A stretch of DNA of 64,000 bases from Methanothrix sp. (GTDB lineage: Archaea > Halobacteriota > Methanosarcinia > Methanotrichales > Methanotrichaceae): NCBI GenBank assembly GCA_026394555.1, contig JAPKXZ010000051.1:59096-123095 (forward strand). Direction: 5' to 3'. The first letter of the stretch is position 1. Each line of letters opens with the position of its first letter. Positions 19,301-64,000 of the stretch are shown piece after piece. The position numbers and the translations under genes are program-made. Under the pieces are notes generated by a model that was not told the DNA's origin, searched no databases, and saw only the letters and a list, made by a program, of their open reading frames with translations.

Positions 19301-19512
19301 TAGGTGAAATCCTCATAGCCATATTCTGGAGTTACCACAGCGCTTCTGATTTCATAGCCGCTCTGGGCCGCGCATGGTGCGGCAAGGGATAAAGCAGAAA
19401 TTAAGCACAGGCATATTAGAAACAGTATATGATTATATCTCAATTTTTCCATCTTCTTGCGTAATAATCCATTTATATTTATTTCAGCTTTCGTCCCTTT
19501 CAAGTGGTTCAA
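16381..19512 (-). CDS. large secreted Ig-like repeat protein, first gene of the FtsZ-like operon
   Basis: Signal peptide ILFLICLCLISALSLAAPCAAQ; repeated units such as SVQFSQGLVSPTAGLWNDSYTYSLKI / SINFGDATVAPVKGKWNETYAYSVPV; 4-bp overlap with the next gene. Confidence 0.75.
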   Translation of the reverse strand: MNHLKGTKAEININGLLRKKMEKLRYNHILFLICLCLISALSLAAPCAAQSGYEIRSAVVTPEYGYEDFTYSAQVWMSEEAASKVGLIAVTKFSMKLNIYDQGQLVYSDSSPSQTGMGKTSFTFGPYSFKDRFGIAETSNATFEFIFLAGGQQVAKTTRIKGPIVQPPTLTGTQFEKKPYFFQGIAVSAGFKDMDGLNPKPTCHLEITGPLGTAESRSWTTADVSCQSSGKSTYSCIVAEDLSSYRNGGDFTFKLVYNNLKVDPLTYGPYNISLQPYNPSLEKVAIPKLLDYTNFTIQAYVKDAGAKMVGGTPDGSVASLIISHPQKGEMTYDSSEPVVRGGSLVYEWTNDNIPALFNRSDVQLAKNAPFLAKVVYKNENWNYQAEKSNISFKVVEEIPKLDLQYPPVVYVRTGESTTQDIIATVTFSKGLGDMNFRLSGPDQDLNLTEKGVPLGGNRYQYKWQVAFDDRHINNNYTLALSFVHPTLEGGSYAFGDKIIRVASLSVQFSQGLVSPTAGLWNDSYTYSLKIDTTIVPLEVRLQTYDPCSSEWTDKGAKKATAQSSWINWTLSPFGYECKEMQQEGAKYRFKASFAGNDYSSKPYQGPTFEGGKPVLISLDSDPVVYVSEGSESSSSIAAVVEYGAGQGQAVLRLNGPEKSIDETSQGIALGGNQYRYDWSLPFEETDIGKSFNYTISYKHSSLAAEMLLAEKSIDVKAISINFGDATVAPVKGKWNETYAYSVPVKSSVEMKVALEVYNPCSFMWVQRASGKVLAGETTLNLNATPFKSRCADSEGVQAKFRYTASFADKTYESEVYPGPTISGGKPKLVSTTPVSPKLDDGGLFNDSSVTVIGNVTPAVGVIQAWDEKDPLHTLTYTLKLLNWSSEEMPWIGLSVRAYGSNWEIVEGTKQLNPVTRSVSWALKPFWKTPFLGKAEYKFIIDRKETTQFEGPDIIAVISNAGDNLNGKVHDFWASVNSSENLTVCLMGGDNSIPELIKTWKITDKCRDYRFGTGEQAFKWQIPESQTSPYYDFDIKRKTEVPKQ

Positions 19513-19929
19513 CCCCTATTAATTCCGGAGTTTGTTTCTCCCAGCCAAATATATATAGCCCTTTCCCTCAATCCAATTTATGTCGAGATCTTTAATATCA
19601 TGCTTTCTCAAGAGCATATAATTTTCTTTTGCTGATGCTTTAAAGCAGCGCTATGAACAAGAATTTAAAAACACAATAGTGTCTGAACTTATGGATATGA
19701 AGGCACGATTATATCTGAAGGCCATCGCGATCTACCTATATCATAGAGATAGTATCCGCCAAATTATCATTCATCATAGTATTCTCAAAATGTCAATGAA
19801 GCGACCTCGACACTTCACAGCAGGGACTTTTGCAAGGTTTATGCAAAGGGTGACATCGCATCGTGGTAAATCTTTTATATCAATGAAATGTAAGTGAAAA
19901 GAAGCTTTTAAGAATAGGAGGGATTTTGC

Positions 19930-22900
19930 TTGAAAAAAGAAGTATGCAATAGACCACTATTTAATGGTCGCAGTCTGGTTTTTTTACTATATATATTTGT
20001 AGCCATATCCGGATTATATATAACTATCTCAGAAAGTACTGCTCAACAAGGAAAGGATTGGACTTGGTCTGTAATAACAGGAGATATTGAGGGTTATGAT
20101 AAAAATTATCCCTCTGATTCTTATCGCTACATGATAAATGATAGCGTAAACATATCCTGGAACATCATACCTTCTAATAGTTCTAAAATTATAAATACAA
20201 CGTTAAAGGTATACCCCAAGGATGACGATGAATCGAAATATAAACATTATGCAATAACTATTCCCCCATATACGGGTTCTGTTTATGCGCTATTGGTAGA
20301 TCCATCTCTTTTCGATGGTATTTTAGCAGAAAATGAAAATATATATAACGTAGAGGTAAATGCTACTGCGATAGATAATACCTCAGAAAACACAACGCGC
20401 CCTAATGAATGGCACACACATAAAATAGAGATAACAGTAACCAAGCCAGGAATACTGGTGATTCGAAAGAAGGTGCCAGGATGGAATGATGCCGACCTGT
20501 CTGGTTGGCGATTCCGAGTTGCAGGACCCGTCGATACGGTACTCACGAAAACTGCAGAAAAGGTCACGGACAACTCTGGAATGGTCGTCTTCTCAGGACT
20601 ACGACCGGGGATGTATAGTGTTGAAGAGGTTTCGAGAGACGGTTGGCTTTCAATTCCGCCTCGGAATGTGGAAGTCAAACCCGGACTGAGCAAGCCAATA
20701 GGTCCGAATGAACCACAGGAATTCCTCAATACGCCCAATACACTGACAATAATTAAGAAGGATTCTGTCGGTCATCCTTTATCCGGCTGGGCGTTCAAAG
20801 TCCAGGGATCGAAAGTGACTGAAATCACAAAGCCCACCGACGGCTCAGGAATTACAGTGGTTAAGGGATTGCCTTCGGGAGAGTACAACATCCAAGAAGA
20901 ACCCTCAAAGGCGGGATGGAGGCAGATCTCAACCGAACCGGATCTTCCATTAATATTTGGATCGGGCGAAAGCAAGTCGGTCGTTATAACTAATGCCAAC
21001 GAGGGATCTATAAAGATAACAAAGAAGGACTCTGAAGGAAATCCTCTTGCCGGATGGAGCTTTACCGTGGCCGGACCCGACAGCGCAACTGTGGTTACAG
21101 ATATTTCTGGTGTAGCTGTGGCTCGGGGGCTGTTGCCTGGAGAGTACACAGTCAAAGAGATTCAACAATCGAGATGGGTTAATGTAACGGATATTGCAAG
21201 AGCAGTTACATTAAATCCTGGAGAAAATAAGCAATTAGAGCCATTCATCAATGCGCCAATAATTCCCTTAACCATCGTTAAATTTGATGACAAAAATAGA
21301 AACGGACGACTGGACAGGGATGCAAGCGGCTCGCCAGTCGAAAGCGGGCTTTCCGGCTGGATATATATTGTGGAGGGACCAAGGGGTTTCAAGACCACAG
21401 TGGGACCGACAAATGCCGCGGGAATTGCTGAAGTAGATCTGACTCCGGGAGAATACAAGGTCACAGAGGAGATATCCTCATCTAGCAAGCCTGGCTGGAT
21501 TTGCACAACATCGAATCCACAAACGGTTAAGATATCTCGCAGTGCAGCAAATAAGGTTGAGTTCGGAAACAAGGTGAACAAGCTCACTCTAGTTGCGTTC
21601 AATGATACAAGCATGGATAGAAAGAGGGAAGGCAATGAGAGTGGATTAGCGGGATGGACATTCGTCATAAAAGGCCCTAATGATATAAGTAATCCTCCTG
21701 AAACCACTACCGGACCTACGGGTGCCGATGGCACGGTTGCTATAGATGGATTAAAGGCTGGATCGTACACCGTTACTGAGAACCTAGCAGGTGGCTGGAT
21801 AAATACTACACCAATCTCAACATCGGTCCAGATTCTGGCAGGAGAAGAAAAACAGGTGGAATTTGGCAATATCAAGCCGAGCAGGATCGAGATTTTCAAG
21901 TTCAACGATACGAACCGGAATGGTAAGCTTGATACTGGCGAAAATGGCGTACCTGGATGGTCTTTCAACGTTACAGGCCCAGGTGGGTTCGTCGATACCA
22001 CCAATCCGACCAACGCCGAAGGAACTACTGTTATCGAGGGACTTTTCCCGGGAAATTATATCATAACCGAGCCCCAAGTAGATCGCTGGCTAAATACAAC
22101 TCCCCGCATAGAGAGTGTGATGATTGGATTTGGAGATAGTCAAATAGTTACCTTTGCAAATTACTATTGTCAGAGGTGTCATAGAATCAATGATCAACCA
22201 AAGATCAACAATAGCATAGATCAGGATCTGGTCGTGATCAAAGAAGTGAGCAGTATCTCCGCAGAGAACATAAACAAGAATGGATACCCTGTGAACTACA
22301 ACATCAAGCTCTGTCCATCCGGAAGTCTTGAGCGGATCGCAGCTATTCCAACTGACATTGTGATCGCTGTAGACAATTCACGAAGCTTAAGCAATCTCAG
22401 TGAGTCGGCAATTTCAGGAGTTTCAAATCTGGTGGACGGGATATCGAAGAACGATAAGCAAAAGGTAACCAGATTGGGACTTGTTTCATGGAGCGATAAG
22501 GACTTCAGCAAAACTCAGGTTCCACTGACAGATGATTACAATTCAGTTGCATCGGCAGCAAAGAACATAATCTTCCCTGAAGGCAATTACACCGACTATC
22601 AGGAAGCAATCAATTCCGCTCTCCTGCCGTTCCAGGGGATAAAATCGGATACAAGCAGGACCAAGAAAATCGTGTTCATAACCGATGCAAACGACAGTGG
22701 ATATATTGCGCCTTCTAGTATGCCTGGGCGTGATTATACGATTTACGCCATTGTGGTAGGAAACAACAAGGGCATAAAGCCATATGAGATGCTGGACAAG
22801 CTAACAAGGGATCATCAGGGATACATAAGATCCATAAACAACATCTCTGAGCTGCAAGATGCACTCATTCAAATGGCTACGGCAGGATCGAGGGTCAAGA

Positions 22901-23352: not shown

Positions 23353-23569
23353 ATCAATCCTTTTTGCGATTATATTCTGAATTTGTGTAGTCCCGAAACC
23401 TTTGACTTTATATACCCACCAATGGGGCATGGGAAAGAAGAATAAAGTCGTAACCTGGATAGCGACGCGAGTGCCACCTACAATTTCCCCAACCGGTCAT
23501 ATCCAGGCCAATGTATTGGCTATTTTTCTCATTAACTCCAATTAGAAAATTATACACATGTTGCTATAA

Positions 23570-24028
23570 TTATGTACTTGTAGGTGTTATATGACCTACA
23601 AAGAGCCAAAATGCGTAATTCAATTTAAATATTGTTGGAGTTTCATTCATATCGTCGATATATTGACTCATGCGATCCTTCAACTCTTCATTGGATGATA
23701 CACGAATCCCTCTCAGCATGCTTCGAGTCATTTTGCTGAATAGGCTCTTGATTATATTTAGCCATGAGGCATGTTTTGGTGTAAAGACAAAATGAAAGCG
23801 TTGCGGAACTGTTTTGAGATAGCTCTTAGTTTCCTTAGATGTATGTACGCTAACATTCTCCAGAATAATAATTATTTTTATATCTTTTAGATAGGCTGAA
23901 TCGACACATTTTAAGAATTCAATGAACTCCCTACTTCTATGCCTATCGAATATCCTATAATGAACTGTCCCGGTTAAGAGATCAATTCCTGCAAGCAGAG
24001 ATATTGTGCCATGCCTGCACGAGGCCAT
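23570..24028 (-). pseudogene. degenerate IS630-family transposase, C-terminal part of DDE domain
   Basis: HGTISLLAGIDLLTGTVHYRIFDRHRSREFIEFL...RFHFVFTPKHASWLNIIKSLFSKMTRSMLRGI; N-terminal half missing; expected catalytic D (LDN) is E and expected E (WLNxxE) is K. Confidence 0.8.
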
Positions 24029-34215: not shown

Positions 34216-34364
34216 GCAGGAGGGAAACAGCTTCTGCACCTCACGTTTCCCTTTTTTTGATTTAGAGTCTGGGGTCGAGTAATGAATAGCTCTCTTTCTT
34301 CCTCATACAATAGAAAAGCTAAAAGCTTATGCCATATTGCAGATGTCCTGGAGATGACACAAGA

Positions 34365-34781
34365 ATGAAGTTGATCGCGGCAATAGCCGTTTTAATTATG
34401 CTCATAATAGCCGTTACTTTCGCTCTCGGGGATATGACCGACTATCAGAGAGGAGTGGCCAATGGGCTGAAGATCGGACTGTTCATGGGCGAATATCATG
34501 GAAAAGGCCAGTACGTAATGGAATCTGCAGGACAGTTTAATACCTATCTGGAAAACTATAATAAGTTCATTTGGGCGTCTTTTGCCAACAACCAGAGCTT
34601 GATTAATGAGTTCATGCTCTCACCCATTGCTGTTGCGCGACGATCTTCAAGCACTGGAGTATTGAGACCGGATGCAAGCGGTAGAGTTCTTGGCTATCCG
34701 GCCGATTCTTACTTCACATGGATTGGGGCGGTTCCAGGAACGACACCCCTAAATCCAGGAGATGCGCTCCCCGGTGTGTAG
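34365..34781 (+). CDS. hypothetical protein with N-terminal TM/signal
   Basis: MKLIAAIAVLIMLIIAVTFALGDMTDYQRG...; ATG at 34365 gives the canonical N-terminus. Confidence 0.65.
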   Translation: MKLIAAIAVLIMLIIAVTFALGDMTDYQRGVANGLKIGLFMGEYHGKGQYVMESAGQFNTYLENYNKFIWASFANNQSLINEFMLSPIAVARRSSSTGVLRPDASGRVLGYPADSYFTWIGAVPGTTPLNPGDALPGV

Positions 34782-34782
34782 A

Positions 34783-35820
34783 ATGCAACTTGATCTGCCA
34801 ATACGTCTGGGCAAGAAAAATTGGCTGATAGTCTTCACATTAGCCCTTGCCATCCTGCTTTGTTACTACATCTGGCCGCTTCTCGACGGCCTGGTCCTGG
34901 GCCTCGTCTTCTCCTACGTGGGCCGACCGGTGCGTGATCTATTCGGAAAAAACCGGCGCATCGGTTCCTTGGCCGCCATCATCTGCATTGTCGTTCCGCT
35001 CTCTGCGATCTTTGCCTCGGGAGTTATCGAGACTTCAAACCAGATCAGGTGGCTGGAGAGCCACGAAAGGGAGATCGTCACCCTCATCTTTGAATTTGTC
35101 TCCCGGGTCCATATTCCGCAAGCGATATTCGATGAAATCTCGCGGGGCATGGCCAACCTGATGGGAATGGGCATCAATCTCTTAGCCAGCCTGCCCGTCT
35201 TCAGCCTGGGCTCAACCATAACCCTTGGCATTGTCAATTTCTTGATCGCATTTTGCGTCTGCTACTTTTTATTGCTTGATGCAGATCGAATCTCAGAAGC
35301 CGTAAGGGAGCTTTTCCATCTGGAAAACGACAGCTTTGAGTTGCGCTGCCTGGCCAGAATAGATAGCATTCTTTGCGGAGTTTACATGGGCAGCATCTAC
35401 ACCGCCATAGCGGGCGGGATTACCTCTGTGGCCATCTTTTACATATTTGCCGTTCCCCGGCCCTTTGCCATGGCCAGCATCGTCTTCTTGGCCGGTATGG
35501 TGCCTTTTCTCACCTGGCTGGTCTTCATACCCACGGCTGTAGGCAGGTACATTGAGATGGGGCCCATGGATGCCGCTCTCTTCTTCCTGGCCGCCTCGAT
35601 TCTGGTTCATATCGCGGAGCTGGTCATCCGGCCTTACATCGTCTACACCAAGTCCTCGCTGCATCCGCTACTGGTGCTGCTTGCCTTTCTGGGTGGAGGC
35701 CTTGTCGCCGGAATCTCCGGCTTCTTCTTGGCTCCGGCAATGGTTGGCGTGGTGACCGGTATCTTTCGGGTGATGAGGGAAGATCGGGCGAAAAGGAACA
35801 CGGAAATGCAAAATCCTTAG
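34783..35820 (+). CDS. AI-2E family (PerM-like) transporter
   Basis: Multi-TM; LALAILLCYYIWPLLDGLVLGLVFSYVGRPV...; C-terminal GGGLVAGISGFFLAPAMVGVVTGIFRV. Confidence 0.85.
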   Translation: MQLDLPIRLGKKNWLIVFTLALAILLCYYIWPLLDGLVLGLVFSYVGRPVRDLFGKNRRIGSLAAIICIVVPLSAIFASGVIETSNQIRWLESHEREIVTLIFEFVSRVHIPQAIFDEISRGMANLMGMGINLLASLPVFSLGSTITLGIVNFLIAFCVCYFLLLDADRISEAVRELFHLENDSFELRCLARIDSILCGVYMGSIYTAIAGGITSVAIFYIFAVPRPFAMASIVFLAGMVPFLTWLVFIPTAVGRYIEMGPMDAALFFLAASILVHIAELVIRPYIVYTKSSLHPLLVLLAFLGGGLVAGISGFFLAPAMVGVVTGIFRVMREDRAKRNTEMQNP

Positions 35821-36114: not shown

Positions 36115-36789
36115 ATGGAAAAATGGAGCCGCCTTTCCCTTGTTGCAGAAATGATCCGTGATCACATCTCCCTGGACGGAATCGACCGATATCTAGCCGA
36201 AACCGGGGTTCAAGGCTGCGATTTCGTGCTCGTGCAGCCCAGTGACTTTGCCGGAGAGATATTCGCTGTGGACGGCTCCAATGTCTCCATCTGCAACTGG
36301 TCGACTGCCAATGTGAACCTGATCCGGGCAGGCTATGCCGTCTACCGGGGAAGAGATTGGAAGCGCACGGTCATCACCTTTGACGATGTCTTCGTGGCCG
36401 ATGCGAAGTTATGCAGAAACATGTTCGACCCTTATCTGGAGCAATTCTTCGGCCTGAATGGAGTCGATCTCAAGGAATCGGATCTGGATCGACTCTCCAG
36501 CTACTATCGAGAGCTACAGGAGTATGTGGCCATAAATGAAGCCCTGGGTGAAGCCCATGCCGGAGACATCGTCCTTTACGACGGCAGCTTTGACGTCTTT
36601 GAACTCTTGAGGGATGCACTTGCCGTCATCTTTGCCCGAGCAGAGGAGAAGGGCGTCGCGCTTCTGGCCGTAGCCAAGTCCAGCTCCCTCTTTTGGGGTG
36701 AGGAGATCACGCTTCCCTTTGTGCAGCATACCAGCATGGCCGGCAGCCGGCTTACAGCCAGAATGAGATACATTTGGATTATGAATTAA
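36115..36789 (+). pseudogene. nurA: 3'-truncated NurA-domain gene (N-terminal about 215 residues)
   Basis: Aligns by eye along its length with the intact NurA at 39409-40446 (FAVDGSN, NLIRAGY, DRLSSYYRELQEYVA, SSLFWGEEITLPFVQHTSMAGSR) then ends abruptly. Confidence 0.8.
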
Positions 36790-36829
36790 AGGAAATATGA
36801 TAATTAAAATTTAGATAGGAGACTCCGAT

Positions 36830-39382
36830 ATGGGATTACTTGATTGGTTTAAAAAGCCCAGCAATAAAGTCACGGATATATCAACAAAATTAGAAAAAGC
36901 AATTTCGTATCCATCAACTCCTTCGGACCAATCGCGTTCTGGAGCCAGAGAATTTATATCATTTATTGAATCTCCTTTATTTAAAATCGTGGGTTCTTTT
37001 CAATTACAAGTTGATGGGTACAATGGTTGCGATGATTTTTTTATAACAGGAAAGCAAACAGAAAAATTGCCAGGTTTTGATCTTAGATCAAGACGCAAAT
37101 TTAAGCTACACTATCATGGATTTAACTGTTTTATAGTAGAGGCTAATAAAACGCTTTTTATTATTAGGCCGACTAGCAGTAATAAAATTAGTCTTGAACA
37201 TTCAGCACTTGAATCAATGCAAATTCTGGACTTAGACGAAAAATGTGCGATTTTATCCTCAGAAAACACATTAGCCTATCTTGATCTCAATACAGGTTTG
37301 GTTATGCTATATCAATTCAGTTGGCATCCATTTAGAATTGCAATTGGTAAGGAGTTTTGGTTGGTTAGCACAAGAGAGACTACTGAAGGTCCAGGAGAAC
37401 TTTATAGTTTTTCTCTAAAAGGAGAATACTTGTGGGGAATTCAATTTAGTGAGGAATTTGAAACTGCGTTTGGAACTATCAAGGCAACAGCATATCATTT
37501 ACTTATCTCAAGAGATGACAAGCATATTGTTGTTTCCACAATGGATCGAGTATATCGCCTAAATCATAATGGAACATTGATTTCTCGAATAGCACTCGCG
37601 GATTTACGTGAGGCCGAGATTAAAATAGAAGAAGCTAAACGCAGAGAGAATCTCCCCAAGAATCCGAAAACCAAAGAAGAGCTAATTCAAGTACGGGCTC
37701 ATGAGATGTCTGAACAGCTAGTAGGTGGAATGATAAGGGCCACCTCGCTTAATACTCCACTAGCAGGTTTTATTCTAGGTCCGATAATAGATAATATATT
37801 CATATTAGAAGATAAAGGTCGATTAACATCATGGAATTCCCAAGGTAATCTTGTTTGGGCTTATTCATTTAATGAATCTGGAAATTACATCGGACTCTTA
37901 GATGACTCTCTTGTTGTGTCCCTTAAAACAGGCAATATCTTTTGGCTTAACCAGCGAGGCGAGACTCTATTTTCTGCAAAGCTACCTAAGCAGGCAAAAG
38001 CTGTCTTCACAATTCCTGAGCAAGATAAATATTTGATTGCTTGCGAAGACGGACGCCGCTATGAATTAGATAGACAGACCAGCGAGTTAATTCAAGGCCC
38101 AGAGGGTGATAGAGACATGGAATTATTTATGTTCCAGGATCGAATCATATTCTACGACAATTATCTGTGGGCGACATCACCAGCTTCTCCCTGGCAAACA
38201 TATCAACCGAAGAAGACGGATCATGCGGCTCTAGCCGAAGGACTCTCTTCAGATGATTTTGCGCCGCAGGTAAAAATTTGTAAGGGATTTCAAAAAACGT
38301 CAATACTTAGCGATCTAAACGAATATCCATTTTATTACTATGCAATTGATAAGAAGAACCGACGTATATGCATAGGAAGAAGAAAGGCAGAACTCTCCAA
38401 AAAAGAGATGGAAATGCAGGAAAAACTTTCTAGGAATAACAGTTTTTCTACATGGAATGATGTGTTATGCTATGATTTTTCATCAAGGCTGCTATGGTCA
38501 ACTTCATTTCTATCTGAAATTACATCAATCGCAGTATCACCTGAGGGAGATGCAGTGTTTGTTGGGTTATGGGGCGAGGGGTTGGCTTATGACCCAGGAA
38601 AGCTTATTGTTTTGGACACAAATGGAAAGGAAAAACTCGCGTTAGTCACTGTGGCAAATCCTACTGCATTTAATTTTAAAAACCCAAATCAAGGAAAAAT
38701 GCATGTATTTCAAGGATCTTCATATTTGGTTCAACGTATAAATATAGGAAAATGGAAAATAGAACAAGATTCAAAATCCTGTGATTCAGAGACGTCTATG
38801 GATTATGGAGCGGGGTTAGACGAAGCCACTTTAGGTAATTACAAGATAATCCGAGTAGGTAAAAAGAGTTATCAAATAGCCTATAACGAAATGCAACGTG
38901 ATCTTAAAACTAGTGCAGCTATTTATGAAGCAGTATCTATTCCAAATTCAGATAACTTATTATTACGTATTGGAAATAAAACTGTTAGGGGTATCTCCCC
39001 TAGAATCGACACACTCTGGGAGATAAAGGCCAAAGGGAATATTAAGTCAATAACAATAGGCGACAACGGATTCTTAATTTTATCTAGAGAGGAAATAGTA
39101 TTTTGTAATTCAGATGGAACTACTAAATGGAGGTTGGGATGCCCCCCAAACTCAGAATACAACATTGCAGTCTGGTTGGAGATGCATAAATCGTTTTTCT
39201 GGGGAGCTGGAGATCGGAACTATTTCCAAATTTGCCTAATATCGTCAGACGGTCTAATAAAGAAGAGTCAATTATTCAAAGAAGTAACCATAGACTCTCG
39301 TTTTCCCAGTATAGACGTATTAGAGGATGAAACACTATTCGTTTTGAGAATGGCTGGATCAATAGTCAGTTATGAAATTTAA
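36830..39382 (+). CDS. 850-aa WD40/PQQ-like beta-propeller protein of unknown function, next to nurA-herA
   Basis: Repeated blade-like strands (VVSTMDRVYRLNHNGTLISRI, NIFILEDKGRLTSWNSQGNLVWAYSF, DSLVVSLKTGNIFWLNQRGETLFSAKL, ITSIAVSPEGDAVFVGLWGEG). Confidence 0.75.
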   Translation: MGLLDWFKKPSNKVTDISTKLEKAISYPSTPSDQSRSGAREFISFIESPLFKIVGSFQLQVDGYNGCDDFFITGKQTEKLPGFDLRSRRKFKLHYHGFNCFIVEANKTLFIIRPTSSNKISLEHSALESMQILDLDEKCAILSSENTLAYLDLNTGLVMLYQFSWHPFRIAIGKEFWLVSTRETTEGPGELYSFSLKGEYLWGIQFSEEFETAFGTIKATAYHLLISRDDKHIVVSTMDRVYRLNHNGTLISRIALADLREAEIKIEEAKRRENLPKNPKTKEELIQVRAHEMSEQLVGGMIRATSLNTPLAGFILGPIIDNIFILEDKGRLTSWNSQGNLVWAYSFNESGNYIGLLDDSLVVSLKTGNIFWLNQRGETLFSAKLPKQAKAVFTIPEQDKYLIACEDGRRYELDRQTSELIQGPEGDRDMELFMFQDRIIFYDNYLWATSPASPWQTYQPKKTDHAALAEGLSSDDFAPQVKICKGFQKTSILSDLNEYPFYYYAIDKKNRRICIGRRKAELSKKEMEMQEKLSRNNSFSTWNDVLCYDFSSRLLWSTSFLSEITSIAVSPEGDAVFVGLWGEGLAYDPGKLIVLDTNGKEKLALVTVANPTAFNFKNPNQGKMHVFQGSSYLVQRINIGKWKIEQDSKSCDSETSMDYGAGLDEATLGNYKIIRVGKKSYQIAYNEMQRDLKTSAAIYEAVSIPNSDNLLLRIGNKTVRGISPRIDTLWEIKAKGNIKSITIGDNGFLILSREEIVFCNSDGTTKWRLGCPPNSEYNIAVWLEMHKSFFWGAGDRNYFQICLISSDGLIKKSQLFKEVTIDSRFPSIDVLEDETLFVLRMAGSIVSYEI

Positions 39383-39408
39383 AATATTATAACAAATATG
39401 AGGTTAAG

Positions 39409-40446
39409 ATGATAGATAAGACTTCACTCGGAGCGATCGCCGAACAGGTTAAGAATTATCTCTTAATGGACAATATAACTCAATATTTTGAGGAAACTGG
39501 TGTTAAAGATATCGATTTTAAAAAGATAATTTTACACGATAAGTTTGAGGGAAATATTTATGCAGTGGATGGAAGCAATGGTGTTATTTTTGATCTGACA
39601 TCAGTTAGTTTCAACCTAATAAGAGCAGGATATGTTTCCTATATTGGGAAAAAATGGCAAAAGACCGTCCTTTTCGATAAAGTTTTTAAGGCAGATACTG
39701 AGCATTATATGTATCAGTTCGAAAATGACTTACGTAATAATTTTGATATTAATAGCAGTTTTATTTTAGCTAAAACAGAACTTGATCGACTTTCAACTTA
39801 CTATAGAGAACTCCAAGAGTATGTGGCGCTGTACGAAGCTATCTCTGAAGCGGAAACAGGAGACCTTGTGCTCTATGATGGGGATTTCGCATATTGGACG
39901 GATCCATTTAGAGAAGTCCTTAAGATCATATTCGACAAAGCAGAGGACAAAGATTTGGATTTGCTTGCGATCAGCAAATCTAGCACATTCTCATGGGGCA
40001 AAGGTTTTTCAAAGCCCTTTGTTCTTCATACCGGCTACGCTGGAAGTCGAATAATACCAAATAATCCATGGTATATAGAATTGAGTGGAAAAAATATAAA
40101 ACCAAAGCCAAAAGGTAAGAACTGGAAAGGAAAGATCTACGTAATAAAATTGCATCCAGATTCCGAATTTGTCTTCCGGCTTGATGCGCCGCCGCATGTT
40201 GCAAGCCGAATTGATAAGGCTTTAGGACATTTATCTATGTATTCAAGTTCGTCGGAATGCTTGGGTTATCCACATGCTCTATTTAGAGCGCACCGAGATC
40301 TAAGCATAAAAGACTTGGAAAGGGTGCATCTCAATAATCTTCTAATAGATGAATTAAGTGACAAAGGTGTAAATGACAAACACATCCGTAGCTCGTTAGA
40401 CTATCATACGATATTAGAAATGAAGCAAGGGAGGAGAATAATATGA
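39409..40446 (+). CDS. nurA: NurA-family 5'-3' nuclease
   Basis: YAVDGSNGVIFDLTSVSFNLIRAGY, DLVLYDGDF, LLAISKSSTFSWG; 4-bp overlap with herA. Confidence 0.85.
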   Translation: MIDKTSLGAIAEQVKNYLLMDNITQYFEETGVKDIDFKKIILHDKFEGNIYAVDGSNGVIFDLTSVSFNLIRAGYVSYIGKKWQKTVLFDKVFKADTEHYMYQFENDLRNNFDINSSFILAKTELDRLSTYYRELQEYVALYEAISEAETGDLVLYDGDFAYWTDPFREVLKIIFDKAEDKDLDLLAISKSSTFSWGKGFSKPFVLHTGYAGSRIIPNNPWYIELSGKNIKPKPKGKNWKGKIYVIKLHPDSEFVFRLDAPPHVASRIDKALGHLSMYSSSSECLGYPHALFRAHRDLSIKDLERVHLNNLLIDELSDKGVNDKHIRSSLDYHTILEMKQGRRII

Positions 40447-42083
40447 AGGATTTCATTACGACGAATCAATTATCAATTATGGACGATGACGCAAGTTCGC
40501 ATGTATTAGAGAGAAAGACAATAGATAGAACCAAAACAACTACGTATAAAATTATATCAAAAGATGTTAGGGAATTTCATTTTATAATTCCGTATAACGA
40601 AAGGGTTGAACTGGGCCAAATATTCTCTATCAGAGATTACGGCGTGAAAGATGATGAAATTACGTTCCTGGCAAGGGTTACGGATATTAAACATGATTCC
40701 AATTATGAAGGAAAATGGGATACGGCACTTAAAGGGACGGAATTCTATGATGAGGACCAAATATTCAATAGGATCGTGGCTGAGCCGCTTGGGTGCATAA
40801 TATTTAATGAAAAAATTAACAAAAAAGAGTTCAAGAAATCAAAGACTATCCCATCAAAATTCTCGGAAGTAGAAAAGGCGAGCTTTGATGAATTTGAGTT
40901 TCTAACAGAAAAGATGGGGGACTTAGAAGTCGGGTATTTGAGGAATGGAAGTCAGGTTGTTGAAGAAATAGGAGTGAAGCTAAACAGTGAGATCATGGAT
41001 CATCACATGGGCGTTTTTGCGACTACCGGAATGGGAAAATCCAATTTCATGAAGGTCTTTGCGGCCTCATGTATGAAGAAAGCATCAATGGGTGAATCCA
41101 AGTTGGGTCTTCTTCTTGCAGATCCTCATGGGGAGTATCTTCTAGGAAGCGCCAAAAATAATACAAAAGGCTTACTTCATTTAGGAAAATATAGTGATGG
41201 TCTTATATGTTATTCCACTAATAAAAAAAATGCAGAAAAAAATGGAGAAGTCGAGGACTTAAAGATAGGATTAAGAGATATAAAGCCAACGGATATATTG
41301 CCACTAGTGGGGGAATGGAGGACTGCCCAAGTTGAAGCTATTGAATCTTTGGATTCGGAAATAACGAGCGATTGGTTGAAGAGCTTCAAAGAAGATGGAA
41401 AGTTGGTCATAAAAAATTTTGATCCCAGAACGATTAATGTCATTGAAAGAAGACTAAAAAGGCTTCTTGGATTCAGTTATATTGATGAGAAAATCTCAAG
41501 TATCGATAAAATCATTAAATCCCTCCAAGAAGGGAAAGTTGTTTTAATCGATATGCAAGGAATTAACGAAAGAGAAGAACTATTCCTTCTTTCGCTTCTT
41601 TCGCGCCATATTCTCGACAAATACAGAGAGGAGAGTCTGGATGAATGTAAAAAGATCTGCCTTATAACAATTGAAGAGGCACAGAGGGTCCTAGGTGGAA
41701 AGGATAGTAGTATATCTAGATTCGAAATTATAGCCAGAGAAGGAAGGAAGTTTGGTGTGGGCCTATGTGCAATAACTCAGCAACCTAAATTAGTTGACAA
41801 GCAGTTGTTATCTCAGTTCAATACATTAGTTGTAATGGGTCTTGGCGATAGAAATGATAGGAAATGCTTAGAGGAGTCTGCAAAACAAGATTTAACGACG
41901 CTTGATGTAGAAATACAGACGCTAGAAAAAGGCGAAGCAATAATAAGTACGCTCAAGGTACCTTTCCCCATTCCAGCCACCATCCATTTGTATGAAGATT
42001 ACATAGAGCAGTTGAAAAAGAAAGATCAGACAGATGGGAGTCCCGTTAGCAAAGCCAAAAAGCTAAGTCGACCACCTGATTGA
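40443..42083 (+). CDS. herA: HerA-family bipolar DNA helicase/ATPase
   Basis: Walker A HHMGVFATTGMGKSNFMKVF; Walker B/E LITIEEAQRVLG; arginine-finger region FGVGLCAITQQPKLVDKQLLSQFNT. Confidence 0.93.
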   Translation: MKDFITTNQLSIMDDDASSHVLERKTIDRTKTTTYKIISKDVREFHFIIPYNERVELGQIFSIRDYGVKDDEITFLARVTDIKHDSNYEGKWDTALKGTEFYDEDQIFNRIVAEPLGCIIFNEKINKKEFKKSKTIPSKFSEVEKASFDEFEFLTEKMGDLEVGYLRNGSQVVEEIGVKLNSEIMDHHMGVFATTGMGKSNFMKVFAASCMKKASMGESKLGLLLADPHGEYLLGSAKNNTKGLLHLGKYSDGLICYSTNKKNAEKNGEVEDLKIGLRDIKPTDILPLVGEWRTAQVEAIESLDSEITSDWLKSFKEDGKLVIKNFDPRTINVIERRLKRLLGFSYIDEKISSIDKIIKSLQEGKVVLIDMQGINEREELFLLSLLSRHILDKYREESLDECKKICLITIEEAQRVLGGKDSSISRFEIIAREGRKFGVGLCAITQQPKLVDKQLLSQFNTLVVMGLGDRNDRKCLEESAKQDLTTLDVEIQTLEKGEAIISTLKVPFPIPATIHLYEDYIEQLKKKDQTDGSPVSKAKKLSRPPD

Positions 42084-42095
42084 AGTTACGAGGTA

Positions 42096-43253
42096 TTGAG
42101 AAGAATGAGGATAATCCATATGGCAGATTCGCACCTAGGCTTTTCTGCCTACAATAAGGTCGATCAATTCGGGAGAAACATCATTGAAGAAAAAGTCTAT
42201 GAAGGCTTTAAGCAGACCATCGACAAGATAATTGATGACATACATCCCGATGCGATTATCCATGCGGGAGATGTCTTTCATCATGTAAGACCAAGAATAA
42301 GAACGCTATATGTATTTAAGAAAGAGATAGAAAAGCTAAATAGGAATAAGATCCCCACTATCATTATTAGTGGTAATCACGACGCTCCAAAGTCGTCATC
42401 AACCACTAGTCCGTTTTCTATCTTTGAAGGTCTAGAGCATATTCACATAGTACATAATAACGAGTATCAAGGCATCCCAATTGAAGACTACGTTTTTCAT
42501 TGTATACCATTTTGCCTTAATAATGACGCCTACTTAGACGAATTTAGCAAAATAAGACCTACCGGATCAGATGTTCTCGTTATGCATGGCCTTATCGAAT
42601 CAATAAGAGATAAGCGCCTTAGAACTGTTGGTGAACACGAACTTAGTGATAGCTTTCTGAAAAGATATTTTTCATATATCGCATTGGGACATTATCATAA
42701 TCAGGCCCAAGTTGCAGGGAATGCATGGTATAGTGGATCTATTGAATATTTTAATTTTGGCGAAGCATCCGATAGGAAAGGAATTCTTCAAGTTGACCTT
42801 GATACTCATAAAGTGGAACAAATAGATATAATATCCAAATATATGATTGATCATCCTCCAATAGACTGCAGTGGATTCTCCTCAAAGGAATTAGCAGAAA
42901 AACTCCTAAATTTATGCGATGAAGAAGAAATTAAAGATAAAATTATCAGGATAAATCTAGTAAATGTATCTAAAGCTGCGTTTAAGGGCATAGATCAATC
43001 AAACAAAGCAAAGCTTGGATCGTCTGCATTATTTTTAAAAATAAAAGTCGAATATATTGATGAAAAAGACAAGTATGATAAGCAATTGGATTCTACAAGG
43101 CTCGATGAAGCTTTTTCTAGGTTCCTTGACGAAGAATCACAAAAAGATCGTATACGCAAAGCAATAACTAATGATGTTGTTGCCTACGGGACAGATGTTA
43201 TGAAAAAGGCAGCTTCAGTGCATAACACAAGGAGTCTTAATGCTTCTGGATAG
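42096..43253 (+). CDS. mre11: DNA double-strand break repair nuclease Mre11
   Basis: IHMADSHLGFSAYNK, IIHAGDVFHHVRP, IIISGNHDAPKSS, YIALGHYHNQAQV phosphoesterase motifs. Confidence 0.94.
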   Translation: MRRMRIIHMADSHLGFSAYNKVDQFGRNIIEEKVYEGFKQTIDKIIDDIHPDAIIHAGDVFHHVRPRIRTLYVFKKEIEKLNRNKIPTIIISGNHDAPKSSSTTSPFSIFEGLEHIHIVHNNEYQGIPIEDYVFHCIPFCLNNDAYLDEFSKIRPTGSDVLVMHGLIESIRDKRLRTVGEHELSDSFLKRYFSYIALGHYHNQAQVAGNAWYSGSIEYFNFGEASDRKGILQVDLDTHKVEQIDIISKYMIDHPPIDCSGFSSKELAEKLLNLCDEEEIKDKIIRINLVNVSKAAFKGIDQSNKAKLGSSALFLKIKVEYIDEKDKYDKQLDSTRLDEAFSRFLDEESQKDRIRKAITNDVVAYGTDVMKKAASVHNTRSLNASG

Positions 43254-46200
43254 GCTTATTTTGCGTAATTTCAAAAAATATAAACGTGCAACAATTGGTT
43301 TTCAAGAAGGACTGACAGGCATCATTGGGAGTAATGGCTCTGGAAAAAGCACAATAGTTGAAGCAATAGCATGGGCGCTATATGGCAACAAAGCATCTTC
43401 TATCAAAAGAGAGCTTATAAAAAACATTCATGCTAATGATAATGAACCTGTAGATGTAACTTTATGTCTTAGACAAGATAATAAAGATATAAAAATAATC
43501 AGGAGCATGAAGGGGAAGAATCTCAGTCCGGATGCGACGTTGTATTTAAACAATGATATAATATCTTCTGGAACACGAGATGTAGACCAGAAGTTAGAAG
43601 AAATTCTCAATATCAATTATCAGGACTTCATGAAGACCTTCTACGCCCGGCAAAAGGACCTGGACAATCTGCTCAAAGAGGGCGGAATGGGCAAGAGAGA
43701 ATATCTGCTCAAGCTCCTGGGCCTGGAAGACATCAAGGAGTATGCAATCGAGCTGATCAAGTCCGACCGCGCCACACTAGAGGAGCAAAAGAGCCGTCTG
43801 GCTGGAGCGCTGTCTGAGATTGGAGATGTATCTTCCCGGCTTGAGAAGGCTTTCCAGGACATTGCAGCAGAGAGAAAGGGCCTGGAGGAGGCAGAGGGGA
43901 ACCGGGCAATGCTGGCACAGGCCTATGAGCAAAGCCGACAGGAGCTGGAGGCCATTGCAGAGAAGATGCGCAGCCATGGCCTTTTAGCGGAACGGGCAAA
44001 GAGCCTGGAGTCTCAGGACAAGGAGATGAAAGAGACGATAAAAGCCGCAGAAAAACGGCTCTCTCTGATCGATGCCTCCAAAAAGAGGCTCTCTGATCTT
44101 GCGCCGATGCTTGAGAGGCTTGCCGCCGTAGGGGAAAGGCTTGAAATTTTGCAGCCCATGAGAGAAGTTTATGAGGAGACAGCGCGCCGCCTGGCCGCCC
44201 AGGAGGCAGCTATCCAGGGCGAGAGAAAAGCGCTCTCTCTAAGCCAGAGAAGGCTCCTGGAGCTGGACAAAGATGCCGCAATGCGAGAGGATCTCCTGCC
44301 CCGAGAAGAGGAGCATACAACGCTGCAGGCCAGGCTACTTTCCCTGGAGGATCTCCGGGATAAGCATAACGAGATGCAGGCCCGGCAAAAAGAGGAGGCC
44401 ATCCGAGAGCAAGCAATCGTAGCCAGCATCTCCCGCACGAAAACATTGATTGATGATCTCCACAAAGCTCATGCCAGGCGAGAAGAGATTGCATCCTGCC
44501 CGGAGGAAGAAAAGAGGCGCAAGAACCAGCAGGCGGAGCTTGTCCTGCAAAGGGAGCTACAAAAGGAACGGGACGGACTCCTGGCCAGAAGGAATGCTCT
44601 GGAAGAGCGCCTGGCCCGGTTGAAGGCCGAGGCTGCGGGAGCGCAGGCTGAGATGGAGGGCCTTGGCAAAATCGAGGAGAGGGAGGCGCAGCTACGCCGC
44701 CAGGATAAGGATCTGGATATGCTGGGCAGCGAGCTAGCCCTCGTTCTGGCAGATCTGAGAGGAAGCTACAAGGTAGAGGAGAGCGCCTTTGCCGAGGCGC
44801 AACGCTCTCTGAAAAAGGTCGCAGCGCTGGGGGCGGAAGGCCTCTGCCCTACCTGCGAGAGGCCGCTAGAGGACCAGCGCTATCTGCTCATCAATAAGTA
44901 TGAAAAATCCGCAACGCTCGCAAAAGCAGAGAAGGAGAAGCTTGCCGCCCTGATCGCTGGACAAACTGAGAAGATTGAGGGGGCGACCAGGTCTAGGAGC
45001 AGTCTGAGTTCGGCCTTCGATGAACTAAATGCCCAAAAAAGCCGCCGCTCGGCTTTGCAGGCCGATTTGAGGAATCTGACCTTGCAGATGCACGAGTCCC
45101 AAACCGAGCAGAAGGATCTCTCGGCTAAAATTGAGGGCCTCGGATTGGTCTGCTTCGAAGCCGGAAAGTTAGCCGAGGTTGAAGCGGCTCTAAAAGCTCT
45201 TGGACCTCTGATAACGGAATACGCCAGCCTTTCCCAGCGGCTTGAGGATCTGCCCGGCCTGGAACGCGAGATTGGCCTGCGGCAAAAAGAGCTGGCGGCT
45301 TTAAAGGAGCGACAGGAGCAGCTCCTGGGGCAGATAGAGGCACTGGGCTACGCCGAATCGGACTACATCAATGCCAGAGCGCGCTTGGCCATCCTCAAGC
45401 CGCTGCACGATCGTTTTCTTTCAATTTCGGAGCGGGCTGCGCAAATTCCCGCCCTAAAAGAGAGGATGAAAGGGCAAGAAAAGGAGATAGTGCGGCTCGA
45501 CCTTGTCTTGAGGGCTCTACAGATTTCGCAAAAAGAGCTGGGCTACAATTCGCAGGAGTACGAGGCTCTTTTTAAAGAGAAGAAAGACCTCGCTGCAGCG
45601 GAAAAGGAGAGCCAGAAGATTCGCCTGCTGGTCGCGGGCGAGATCGAGGAGAGAGAGAGGCTGGCAGCAGCCTTGGCCACGTTGGAAAAGCTCAACCTGG
45701 ATCTGAGCGAGTGCAGGCAGCGCCTCTTTGCTCTGGCATACAGCAGAGAGGAGCACGAGATGGCAAAAGCCCTTTTGGCGAGAGCCGAAGGAGAGCTGGA
45801 AGCGGCCAGGAAGGCCGTTTCAGAGCGGCAGGTGCAAATGGGCGTTTTGCTGGCCGCACGGGAGCGACATGCCCGGGAAGCGCAACGGAAGGAGGAGTTG
45901 GAGCGAACTGCCGCCCAGGTGGGCCTGAGAATGGAGGTTGTGGAGGTGACTCGCAGTCTGGTCAACAGCTTCATGGACCAGGTATTGATCCGAGTCAAGA
46001 ACGAGATCGCTCGCACCGCAGGAGAGATCTTGGAGGAGGTATCCGGCAAGTACAGTCGACTGTGTATCGATGACGACTTCAATATCCGAGTCGAGGACGG
46101 GGCCAACTACTATCCCATCTCCCGCTACTCAGGCGGCGAGATCGATATGATCGCCGTTTCCGTGCGCGTGGCCATCAGCGAGTACCTGATGCGCTTTGGA

Positions 46201-46419
46201 CCCGACGGAGAGAGCTACTCCTTCCTGATTTTGGACGAGGTCTTCGGCAGCCAGGACCAGGAGCACCGGGAGAAGATGATCCAGATGCTGAGAAGCCTGG
46301 AGGAGCGCTTTCCCCAGATCATCGCCATCAGCCACATCAGCGACGTGCAGGGGCAGTTCGACAACACGCTGCTGGTGGTGGAGGACGAGCAGGGCAACAG
46401 TAGAGTGGAGGCTCTTTAG
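43240..46419 (+). CDS. rad50: DNA double-strand break repair ATPase Rad50 (compositionally chimeric)
   Basis: Walker A GSNGSGKSTIVEAIAWALYG; zinc hook LCPTCERPL; signature/Walker B YSGGEIDMIAVSVRVAISEYL..SFLILDEVFGSQD. Confidence 0.95.
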   Translation: MLLDRLILRNFKKYKRATIGFQEGLTGIIGSNGSGKSTIVEAIAWALYGNKASSIKRELIKNIHANDNEPVDVTLCLRQDNKDIKIIRSMKGKNLSPDATLYLNNDIISSGTRDVDQKLEEILNINYQDFMKTFYARQKDLDNLLKEGGMGKREYLLKLLGLEDIKEYAIELIKSDRATLEEQKSRLAGALSEIGDVSSRLEKAFQDIAAERKGLEEAEGNRAMLAQAYEQSRQELEAIAEKMRSHGLLAERAKSLESQDKEMKETIKAAEKRLSLIDASKKRLSDLAPMLERLAAVGERLEILQPMREVYEETARRLAAQEAAIQGERKALSLSQRRLLELDKDAAMREDLLPREEEHTTLQARLLSLEDLRDKHNEMQARQKEEAIREQAIVASISRTKTLIDDLHKAHARREEIASCPEEEKRRKNQQAELVLQRELQKERDGLLARRNALEERLARLKAEAAGAQAEMEGLGKIEEREAQLRRQDKDLDMLGSELALVLADLRGSYKVEESAFAEAQRSLKKVAALGAEGLCPTCERPLEDQRYLLINKYEKSATLAKAEKEKLAALIAGQTEKIEGATRSRSSLSSAFDELNAQKSRRSALQADLRNLTLQMHESQTEQKDLSAKIEGLGLVCFEAGKLAEVEAALKALGPLITEYASLSQRLEDLPGLEREIGLRQKELAALKERQEQLLGQIEALGYAESDYINARARLAILKPLHDRFLSISERAAQIPALKERMKGQEKEIVRLDLVLRALQISQKELGYNSQEYEALFKEKKDLAAAEKESQKIRLLVAGEIEERERLAAALATLEKLNLDLSECRQRLFALAYSREEHEMAKALLARAEGELEAARKAVSERQVQMGVLLAARERHAREAQRKEELERTAAQVGLRMEVVEVTRSLVNSFMDQVLIRVKNEIARTAGEILEEVSGKYSRLCIDDDFNIRVEDGANYYPISRYSGGEIDMIAVSVRVAISEYLMRFGPDGESYSFLILDEVFGSQDQEHREKMIQMLRSLEERFPQIIAISHISDVQGQFDNTLLVVEDEQGNSRVEAL

Positions 46420-46447
46420 GATTTAGATTAGTGGAGGCCTTGATAAA

Positions 46448-47788
46448 ATGGATAAAAGTTTGTTTCTTCAGAGAAGTTCCGACCCGGCCTATGCCACTCT
46501 CGACGATTGGATCCTGCACGAAGCGATTCCGTTCTCCGTCGATTCGTCCCAAACCTTAAACGCCTCTGTGGACAGGGTCATGGCCTCACTTGGCGCCTCG
46601 GTGAAGCTGTTGGGCTTGGGAGAAGCGCTGCACGGCGGCGAGGACATTCTTCTGCTCCGTAACCGCCTCTTCCAGTGCCTGGTGGAGAAGCACGGCTTCA
46701 GCGCCATTGCCATGGAGAGCAGCTTCCCCCGGGCGCGCGCCGTGAACGAGTACGTGGCCGGTCGCGGCCCGGCATCGTATGACGCCCTGCGGGAAGCGGG
46801 ATTCAGTCACGGCTTTGGCCGGCTCGAGGCCAATCGAGAACTGGTGGAGTGGATGAGGGCCTACAATGCCGATGCAGCGCACAGCGTCAAGCTCCAGTTC
46901 TACGGCTTCGACAGTCCGACCGAGATGATGTTCAGCGATAGTCCTGCCCAGGTTTTGCATTTTGTTCTCGATTACCTGGCCTCGATTGATAGCGCCAGCG
47001 ACGAGGAGCAACGCTTGCGTATCGACCAGCTTCTGGGCCAGGACTCCGATTGGGAGAACCCCGCTGCAATGATGGACCCGACCAAGTCCATAGGCCTCTC
47101 GCCAGCCGCCACTGCGCTGCGCATTGAGACCGAGGATCTCATTGCACAGCTGCAAATGCGCCGTCCCGAGCTGGTGGCTAAGAGCGATGAAGCCAGCTAT
47201 TTGGAGGCCATGCAGTATGCAACGCTCGCTCGATGGTTGCTGAACTATCACGCCGCGCTGGCACGAAAATCCAACAACCGGATTGTCCAAGGTCTCGGCC
47301 TTCGTGACGCGATGATGGCGGATAATCTGGCGTATGCCGTGGCCCGTGAGGGTGGCCGGGGGAAAGTGTTGGCCTTTGCTCACAACAGCCATCTACAGCG
47401 CGGAAAGGCAGAGTGGCAACTGGGCACTGACCTGCTCACGTGGTGGCCGGCGGGAGCGCACCTCGATGAGATCTTCGGCCCGGGCTATGCCGTCTTCGGA
47501 ACTGCTGTGGGCGTTTCTGATGCCAATGGCATAAGCCAGCCAGAAGCAGGCACTCTTGAGGCGCTCCTGACCGCCGGCCCAGGGTCGGCGCGCTTCATTC
47601 CCACACACAAAGGCCAGGGGCTTCCAACATCAGCAATCGTAGCTCTTCCGGCTCGCTCGGGAAGTATGATGAACCCAACCCACTTCGCACTGACTCCTCA
47701 AAGCTTCACCGATTTCGACTGGCTGGCGGTCCTGGATAAAACGGCATACAGCCGCGGCGGACCACAGCTGGAAAAAATGGGGTGCTAA
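46448..47788 (+). CDS. erythromycin esterase-family protein
   Basis: LLGLGEALHGGEDILLLRNRLFQCLVEKHGFSAIAMESSFPRARAVNEYVAGRG; VLAFAHNSHLQRGKAE. Confidence 0.88.
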   Translation: MDKSLFLQRSSDPAYATLDDWILHEAIPFSVDSSQTLNASVDRVMASLGASVKLLGLGEALHGGEDILLLRNRLFQCLVEKHGFSAIAMESSFPRARAVNEYVAGRGPASYDALREAGFSHGFGRLEANRELVEWMRAYNADAAHSVKLQFYGFDSPTEMMFSDSPAQVLHFVLDYLASIDSASDEEQRLRIDQLLGQDSDWENPAAMMDPTKSIGLSPAATALRIETEDLIAQLQMRRPELVAKSDEASYLEAMQYATLARWLLNYHAALARKSNNRIVQGLGLRDAMMADNLAYAVAREGGRGKVLAFAHNSHLQRGKAEWQLGTDLLTWWPAGAHLDEIFGPGYAVFGTAVGVSDANGISQPEAGTLEALLTAGPGSARFIPTHKGQGLPTSAIVALPARSGSMMNPTHFALTPQSFTDFDWLAVLDKTAYSRGGPQLEKMGC

Positions 47789-47872
47789 ATCTAAACAGTA
47801 AAACCCGTCCACGTTCTGGGAGTCGACTGTACAGCGGGAAGTTCGGAACGAGGGTATGGGCGAGTGAAACAG

Positions 47873-47964: not shown

Positions 47965-49761
47965 TCACTCACTATAAATCTCACTGGCGCTCAGCTGTCT
48001 ACCTTCTGCCAGCAGCTTTGCTGCCTTAAGTACAAGTTCTGCACGTCTGCGGGTGAATGCCTCAAAATTTGCTGCAAGTTTTATGTTCTTTTCCAAATCC
48101 GATAGATTTTCATACCCACCGGTTTCAAGTTCTTTGATGGGTATTAGGTGCGACTGCAGACGCTCTGAAACGATAGTTTCTGTGGTCCATTTATACCGAT
48201 CTATCAGGTATTGCTTTGGGTCTTTCCTACCGATAACCGTGTTTGTCTTATCGTCGATGAGTGCGCAGTTCATAGCGAGAAAGCTGTTGATTCCAGCTCC
48301 TTTCAATAGAGCATCGGGATATATGTGGTGATAGTGCCGCCCTTCGATATTGTCAGCGTTGAGTTGCTTACCTGATGCGAAGTCGTGGGCTCCAAGGCGG
48401 CAAGCGACAGCTAACACACCACGACCACGAATTGTTGCTCGTTTGGGCCAATCGGCTGTTATTAGCTCTTCGACTTCTGCGAGACCTTGCTCTGAAAAGA
48501 TGGGTACATCTTCGATGCCATAATTTGAGCCATCCAGCTTGCATTCACTGAGAATTATTCGTTTTAATGCATTGAAATCGGCAAATGCGTGGGTGGCAGC
48601 TGAGTTTTCATAGCGCTCTGTGAAAAAGGCGTACCATAGGTACTTTTTTAGCAAAAGTTCGTCCTGTCCCATTTTGTCCCCTGATTCCGGAATATATGCA
48701 TACAGGGCAGCAATAACGGCTAGCACAGCATTTGTAGGAAGACGCTGCTTATCATAAATGCCTTGGCTCTCTAGGAAGATGGCCATTCGGTGCAGCCCAT
48801 TTTCCATTTTATCCCAGTTTTCCACCATGCGCCTCTTATCCATATCCCATGAGCCGCGCTGGTTCGGCAGATTACCTTGCAGAAGTGCAGAAGTCGTGAG
48901 AATTTGATCTGAGAGTGGCGAATACCTGATAATTTCGGGATATTTTCTGTTAAGATCTGCTTCGAGATCGTGAATGGATTGCTCCATCGCGCTCTCCACT
49001 TCTGCGACAATGATATCATAGGTTGAAAGTGGCTTGCTGTTGGTGTTCATGTTTATGAAAACGTTCAGGGCGACGGTCTTCTCGGTACAGGAGGGTAGTG
49101 AGAGATATGGAAGATTGTAATTGGCGACAATTGAACGAACGTCCTTGATCCGATCGCTTACTTGTTTTTTAAAATTATAGAACTGGCTTAGTTCCTCTTT
49201 TCCTTCATTTGGCTCAATGGGCTTTGTGGCTGCATCAATCCAGTTATCTATTTCGTTCTGAATGTCTTCTGGTCGCAGTAGGTCGGTTGGGATCATGCCC
49301 CTCTCAAGACATTGAGGTGGGCTATCACACCAAAGAGGATAACGATCGCCTCTTTTATCATAGTAGCGGCTTCGGCAAAACACGGAAAGGTCTTCGCGAT
49401 CTATGTCACCTTCGTATCGATCGAATTCCTTGAAATATATGAAGTATGTCTCATTCTCATAATTATTGTGAAATGTTCTCCATAAAGCAGTGAGTCGTTG
49501 TTGTCCGTCAAGCAGGTGCTCAAAGACGCGACCACCAACCCTTTCAGGAGCAGTACTTAGGAAACGCGATACAAACTTCTCTTGGTCACCGACTTCTAAG
49601 ACTAGAGTTATGCCTAACGGCAAGTTATGAATGACCATCTCGTTCAGACTGCAGATGCGATGTCGATCCCAAGCTTCAAATCGTTGAAAACGTGGGAGCT
49701 TGATCTCGCTGCGTTTTATCTTTCCGTACCATTCGTCAAGATTCCGGTTCCTAGCTTCCAT
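47965..49761 (-). CDS. DUF262 + HNH (DUF1524-like) protein, GmrSD-like type IV restriction family
   Basis: LPRFQRFEAWD, HLLDGQQRLTALWRTFHN; C-terminal RHYHHIYPDALLKGAGINSFLAMNCALIDDKTNTVIGRKDPKQYL. Confidence 0.85.
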   Translation of the reverse strand: MEARNRNLDEWYGKIKRSEIKLPRFQRFEAWDRHRICSLNEMVIHNLPLGITLVLEVGDQEKFVSRFLSTAPERVGGRVFEHLLDGQQRLTALWRTFHNNYENETYFIYFKEFDRYEGDIDREDLSVFCRSRYYDKRGDRYPLWCDSPPQCLERGMIPTDLLRPEDIQNEIDNWIDAATKPIEPNEGKEELSQFYNFKKQVSDRIKDVRSIVANYNLPYLSLPSCTEKTVALNVFINMNTNSKPLSTYDIIVAEVESAMEQSIHDLEADLNRKYPEIIRYSPLSDQILTTSALLQGNLPNQRGSWDMDKRRMVENWDKMENGLHRMAIFLESQGIYDKQRLPTNAVLAVIAALYAYIPESGDKMGQDELLLKKYLWYAFFTERYENSAATHAFADFNALKRIILSECKLDGSNYGIEDVPIFSEQGLAEVEELITADWPKRATIRGRGVLAVACRLGAHDFASGKQLNADNIEGRHYHHIYPDALLKGAGINSFLAMNCALIDDKTNTVIGRKDPKQYLIDRYKWTTETIVSERLQSHLIPIKELETGGYENLSDLEKNIKLAANFEAFTRRRAELVLKAAKLLAEGRQLSASEIYSE

Positions 49762-60645: not shown

Positions 60646-63864
<3,219 letters not shown>

Positions 63865-64000
63865 CTATTCAGCCACCCAGTCAAAACCCTATTTTTCGTC
63901 CGATACTCCATGAATCATAATGTGCTATAATCGACCAAAAATTTAAAATATTAATAATAATCATATGCGCGTTATAATGGAGGGACGCAAATTTCATCAA

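Follow-up and report, generated by a model that had tools for sequence, protein, structure and literature searches.

The rad50 gene examined here occupies positions 43240–46419 of the forward strand of the window, by which we mean the whole 64,000-nucleotide stretch analysed (positions 59096–123095 of a 123,095-base contig). The genome, a draft in 75 contigs from Methanothrix sp., a methanogen of the Methanotrichaceae, is referred to below as G000. The open reading frame is intact over 1059 codons and overlaps the preceding mre11 by 14 bases, so that rad50 is encoded beside mre11. Its product matches the SMC_N and AAA_23 domains and displays, in order and in one frame, Walker A (residue 30), Q-loop (138), hook (536), signature (964), Walker B (994) and H-loop (1030). 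It is thus a Rad50 with the full set of motifs, including a CxxC zinc hook within a long coiled coil. GC3 is 0.29 in codons 1–128 and 0.68 in the remainder of the gene; in the native rad50 of eleven related genomes of the genus, codons 1–128 have a GC3 of 0.62–0.82. An earlier note, made from the sequence alone, had described an AT-rich start followed by a GC-rich gene, and its reading frame, coordinates, Walker A, CPTC, signature and Walker B all agree with ours. The AT-rich 5′ part, which is foreign, covers codons 1–124 (43240–43611) and carries the Walker A motif GSNGSGKS at residues 30–37. The junction, delimited by a max-chi-square scan and by alignment, lies at 43612–43626 (codons 125–129). 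The native 3′ part (43627–46419) contains the Q-loop Gln138, both coiled-coil strands, the CPTC zinc hook (44845–44856), the SGGE signature (46129), Walker B (46219) and the H-loop (46327), and is 80% identical to its counterparts in G021 and G001 and 76% to that of G018.

The chimera described in the earlier note is real, but the description was incomplete, since the AT-rich block reaches well beyond rad50 and spans the operon from about position 36755. The foreign block extends over ∼6.9 kb (36756–43611) with a GC content of 0.37, as compared with 0.57 in the remainder of rad50, and comprises a gene for an 850-aa protein, nurA, herA, mre11 and the 5′ end of rad50, all on the forward strand. 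It is preceded by a GC-rich remnant of the native nurA (36115–36755, forward strand), which retains ∼213 of ∼340 codons and whose reading frame continues into foreign sequence as far as 36789. The remnant shares 91–92% protein identity with the full-length nurA of G021, G010 and G001, after which similarity is abruptly lost. Alignment with the native nurA genes places this left junction at 36750–36760, where GC falls from ∼0.6 to ∼0.25 inside 50 bases. The junction is non-allelic, codon ∼213 of the native nurA abutting DNA from ∼2.7 kb ahead of the foreign nurA, and a later deletion could have reshaped this end. The 850-aa gene (36830–39382) has no good family match apart from a weak similarity to DUF5711; neither an NCBIfam nor a PADLOC match was found, nor any relative in the genomes of the family, G004 aside. 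In G004, a fragment of a homologue sits at the same place, at the left junction, which indicates that the gene belongs to the neighbourhood of the donor operon. The complete foreign nurA (39409–40446; GC 0.37; Pfam NurA, 1e-10) is 82% identical to its foreign counterpart in G004 and 39–46% identical to native genes of the genus. The corresponding values are 82% and ∼58% for herA (40443–42083; Pfam DUF87/HerA, 1e-22), and 77% and 53–57% for mre11 (42096–43253; Pfam Metallophos), the probable start of which is the ATG at 42105.

On both sides the block is bordered by native DNA. The flanks are 94.6% (34310–35800) and 90.7% (46420–47848) identical to those of G021, whose operon is native, and the neighbouring gene downstream (46448–47788, forward strand) marks an intact right flank. 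In G000, mre11, rad50 and operon-type herA each occur once, at this locus, and no native mre11, rad50 5′ part or herA was found elsewhere in the 2.53-Mb genome, which is 96% complete. With no second copy of these genes, the event was a replacement rather than an addition. In the RpoB tree, G000 groups with G021 and G008 (98/99), and the branches of G000 and G021 have zero length. Since G021, the nearest genome by RpoB, has a native operon, the capture postdates the divergence of the two.

The two parts of Rad50 yield conflicting trees. Residues 1–126 of the window protein join those of G004 (100/98) at a position outside the native members of the genus, whereas residues 135–1059 fall with G018, G021, G010, G001, G019 and G020 (99/100), G004 being placed elsewhere. 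AU tests rejected the opposite groupings both ways: forcing the N part to the close species cost 68.9 log-likelihood units (p 1.5e-7), forcing it inside the native group of the genus cost 49.1 (p 4.5e-7), and forcing the C part to G004 cost 130.5 (p 5.4e-8). The trees of Mre11 and HerA agree with that of the Rad50 N part in uniting the window with G004 (100/100 and 100/99). The suspicion voiced in the earlier note that the two half-lobes have different ancestries, for which it proposed separate phylogenies, is therefore supported by their incongruence. With significantly conflicting phylogenies on either side of the breakpoint, rad50 behaves as a mosaic gene, and its predicted product joins a foreign Walker A lobe to a native remainder.

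The breakpoint can be located within a few codons. In the sharpest comparison, that of the window with G004 and G021, the max-chi-square scan places the switch between the informative sites 43611 and 43626 (p 0.0005, the floor with 2000 permutations), an interval that includes the position of about 43620 proposed earlier. Against two other relatives the switch appears at 43659–43692, the intervening DNA being uninformative there. The interval falls, as had been anticipated, in the conserved QDFMKTFYARQKDLD patch, nine or more residues ahead of the Q-loop Gln138. The junction is in frame, at homologous codons and within aligned homologous sequence. In the part of rad50 that precedes the coiled coil, the resemblance between foreign-type and native alleles peaks at two places, Walker A and the Q-loop patch (∼64–78% in 60-base windows), and is 39–61% between them. 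A crossover that needs local similarity would thus be expected to fall in either patch. The Q-loop patch was used in both known chimeras, that of the window and that of G004, and a crossover there keeps the foreign Walker A lobe together with the foreign Mre11. In these two cases, either selection or chance may have chosen this patch.

The second chimera belongs to another species, G004, which is represented by a single chromosome of 3,008,626 bases and is the only genome to share the first part of rad50 with the window. Its layout consists of native nurA to codon ∼197, the fragment of the 850-aa homologue, nurA, herA, mre11 and the rad50 5′ part, and its foreign genes are 77–82% identical to those of the window at the protein level. 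The right junction (43611–43616 in window coordinates), beyond which rad50 is native, falls in the same interval as that of the window; the left junction differs. A transposase gene (DUF4277/DDE_Tnp_1; G004:C1, L041, 13156–14769) is located 0.8 kb downstream of the chimeric rad50.

Three more species of the genus, G024, G007 and G013, carry foreign AT-rich mre11/rad50 at the same operon. Among the genomes of the genus, GC3 outliers account for 5 of the 22 readable mre11 genes and for none of 23 rpoB and 23 top6B genes. In G024, the native nurA runs to codon 138 and is followed by a full foreign operon that includes rad50 (41% over the C part), behind which comes a native rad50 tail of 213 codons, 87% identical to that of the window. 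An open frame of 240 codons encoding the native Rad50 C-terminal lobe, with signature and Walker B, stands right behind the complete foreign rad50 (G024:C398, L051, 8013–8732); this may be either a stub or a separately made half-lobe. In G007, a native nurA precedes a herA that lacks native similarity from about halfway, a foreign mre11 and a foreign rad50 5′ part. The herA is apparently mosaic, native-like to codon ∼230, and the contig stops before the rad50 junction (G007:C324, L033, 1519–4602). In G013, the foreign mre11–rad50 pair is reversed, and AddB-like and AddA-like genes (1049 and 1169 aa; G013:C56:67000-86999, L052, 1127–13040) occupy the place of nurA–herA, flanked by a scrap of native nurA and a broken native rad50 tail. 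This genome has no operon-type HerA, and its AddA-like gene has no close match among the other 49 genomes of the family; at this locus, the class of end-resection enzyme has apparently changed. In the mre11 tree, the foreign gene of G007 joins that of G013 in a second clade (100/99), and that of G024 is placed apart; G007 and G024 both have very short RpoB branches, yet they carry different foreign alleles. Some candidates were set aside. The rad50 'tails' of G014 and G017 (81–91% identity) were not taken as remnants, as they reflect frameshifts, or contigs that break off, at the conserved Rad50 C-terminus; the apparent loss of rad50/mre11 in G022 was not counted since its contig ends at the site; nor was a radA value below 0.5 in L154, where the longest ORF (390 aa) exceeds the radA frame (342 aa).

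That the 5′ part of rad50 might be native after all, merely showing local AT-biased codon use without any transfer, is a reading for which composition alone speaks. It is ruled out by the protein phylogeny, the AU tests, the cut nurA and the genes of the sister species, and we give it practically no credence. An assembly or binning chimera, in which reads from an AT-rich organism were joined to a native contig at a conserved patch, is the chief alternative to a genuine junction: the assembly is a draft, and the junction lies in just the kind of conserved sequence at which assemblers can mis-join. However, native flanks are present on both sides within one contig of 123 kb, the join is in frame, and the longest exact match between the two known full-length AT-type rad50 alleles and native ones, at any point of the gene, is 16 bases, which is short for a mis-join. 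Moreover, the native mre11, rad50 5′ part and herA are missing from the genome, and the same structure recurs in the independent 3.0-Mb chromosome of G004. An artefact is accordingly very improbable.

How often the operon was captured, and from what, is less straightforward. The right junctions of G000 and G004 lie within ∼15 bases of each other and their DNA is 90–95% identical just past the junction, as would be expected if a single ancestral capture had later moved between species by homologous recombination, from a G004-like donor to G000, with right junctions identical by descent. Against this, the left junctions differ, and dS between the foreign tracts is 0.65–1.0, too much for one recent copy. 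This value is at the same time lower than the dS of 1.87 between the native parts of the two rad50 genes, so that the tracts are younger than the host split and were not inherited from the host ancestor. Both tracts also retain a GC3 of 0.2–0.4 in hosts near 0.69, where AT-rich third positions would erode, implying that they diverged in AT-rich donors and not in these hosts; the low dN/dS between them (0.09–0.14) would mostly reflect selection in the donors. We therefore regard a single capture as unlikely. What fits the sequences best would be two separate captures from related AT-rich donors. The shared right junction could also be explained, however, if G000 had acquired its tract from a relative whose rad50 was chimeric beforehand, a further crossover falling within ∼50 bases. 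As to the source, no allele closer than 61–64% was found in viral contigs, plasmids, phages, GTDB contigs, 50 genomes of the family or 394 genomes of the phylum, and these best matches outside the captures are within the family. In a quick tree of concatenated nurA–herA–mre11, the foreign clade stands beside other genera of the Methanotrichaceae (SH-aLRT 98). The likeliest donor, on this sequence evidence, would be an AT-rich relative in or near this family; its genome was not found, and the junctions on the donor side can only be inferred. Alternatively, the tract may be cargo of a virus, plasmid or integrative element. This would account for the AT-richness of all five captures regardless of donor clade, for the presence of an extra, unrelated 850-aa gene and for the absence of donor alleles from every sequenced chromosome searched. 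On the other hand, no integrase or transposase, terminal or convincing direct repeats or att-like ends were seen in or around the tract, no relatives of it were found in viral, phage and plasmid collections, and its operon order is that of the chromosomes of the family. We consider such cargo a little less improbable than a single capture, but still doubtful.

Taken together, we favour with good confidence a repeated displacement of the end-resection operon through homologous crossover at the rad50 Q-loop patch and non-allelic joining in nurA. A fragment from an AT-rich relative, carrying its own nurA–herA–mre11–rad50 operon, would have made its way into the cell and taken the place of the resident operon. 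At the right end, homologous recombination at the conserved patch just ahead of the Q-loop would have produced the in-frame chimera; on the left, joining at a non-allelic point inside the native nurA would have left a nurA stub next to a complete foreign nurA and the extra gene. The overall pattern would be that of homology-facilitated illegitimate recombination, which yields one joint by homology, a second that is non-allelic, and leftover stubs of the old genes (PMC3240628); the single homologous junction is found here at rad50 codons 125–129. The likeness extends to the foreign DNA between a homologous end (rad50) and a non-allelic end (nurA). The published system, however, concerns laboratory bacteria (three naturally competent ones and conjugation in E. 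coli), whereas here the process is inferred from the traces left in an archaeal repair operon, with divergent DNA at the homologous end. The same process has also been proposed to explain how modules are displaced in Vibrio cholerae, where T6SS effector–immunity modules are replaced sequentially and recurrently at one locus, with orphan pieces of old genes alongside (PMC5361080). In contrast to that case, core DNA-repair genes are affected here, and the homologous end lies inside the coding sequence of an ATPase lobe, giving a full-length fused protein. The window has the same four genes in one operon, in the order native to the genus, as the known archaeal nurA–herA–mre11–rad50 operon (PMC4351679, PMC12977600), but they are of two ancestries and rad50 itself is split. 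A helicase–nuclease of AddAB/RecBCD type, such as the AddA/AddB-like pair at the nurA–herA site of G013, is absent from G000.

All four genes of the operon are essential in Sulfolobus islandicus (PMC4351679). If this holds here, the captured operon must have been functional immediately wherever the old one was lost. That the frame and all motifs are intact, and that another species has the same chimera, suggests that the chimeric Rad50 may indeed be functional, presumably together with the foreign Mre11. Mre11–Rad50 is a tightly coupled machine and, as in ABC ATPases generally, each ATP site is formed by the Walker A of one subunit and the signature of the other. Every active site of the chimeric Rad50 would consequently mix both ancestries. 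In two species, and at the same point, Mre11 and the Walker A lobe of Rad50 were swapped jointly while the native coiled coil and signature lobe were kept, and this natural swap offers a ready-made experiment on which parts of Mre11–Rad50 must co-evolve. As the proportion of foreign mre11 genes in the genus also shows, the turnover of a core repair operon can resemble that of an accessory locus. It is tempting to speculate, more tentatively and as a possibility that we do not yet favour, that the whole resection module of Methanothrix-type archaea behaves as an interchangeable cassette, its alleles, and once its enzyme class (AddAB-like for HerA–NurA), being replaced at one site by operon displacement, and that Rad50 half-lobes can be mixed across ∼45% protein divergence. 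To name viral inhibitors of resection as the driver of this turnover would be a guess.

Elsewhere in the window, further short AT-rich stretches (19500–20500, 23500–24000 and 63000–64000) have a GC content of 0.31–0.36, the flanking DNA being near 0.55. A GC-poor (0.46) ORF of 598 aa on the reverse strand (47965–49761) is probably another insertion in this genome, as its native neighbours are directly adjacent in G010 and G001.
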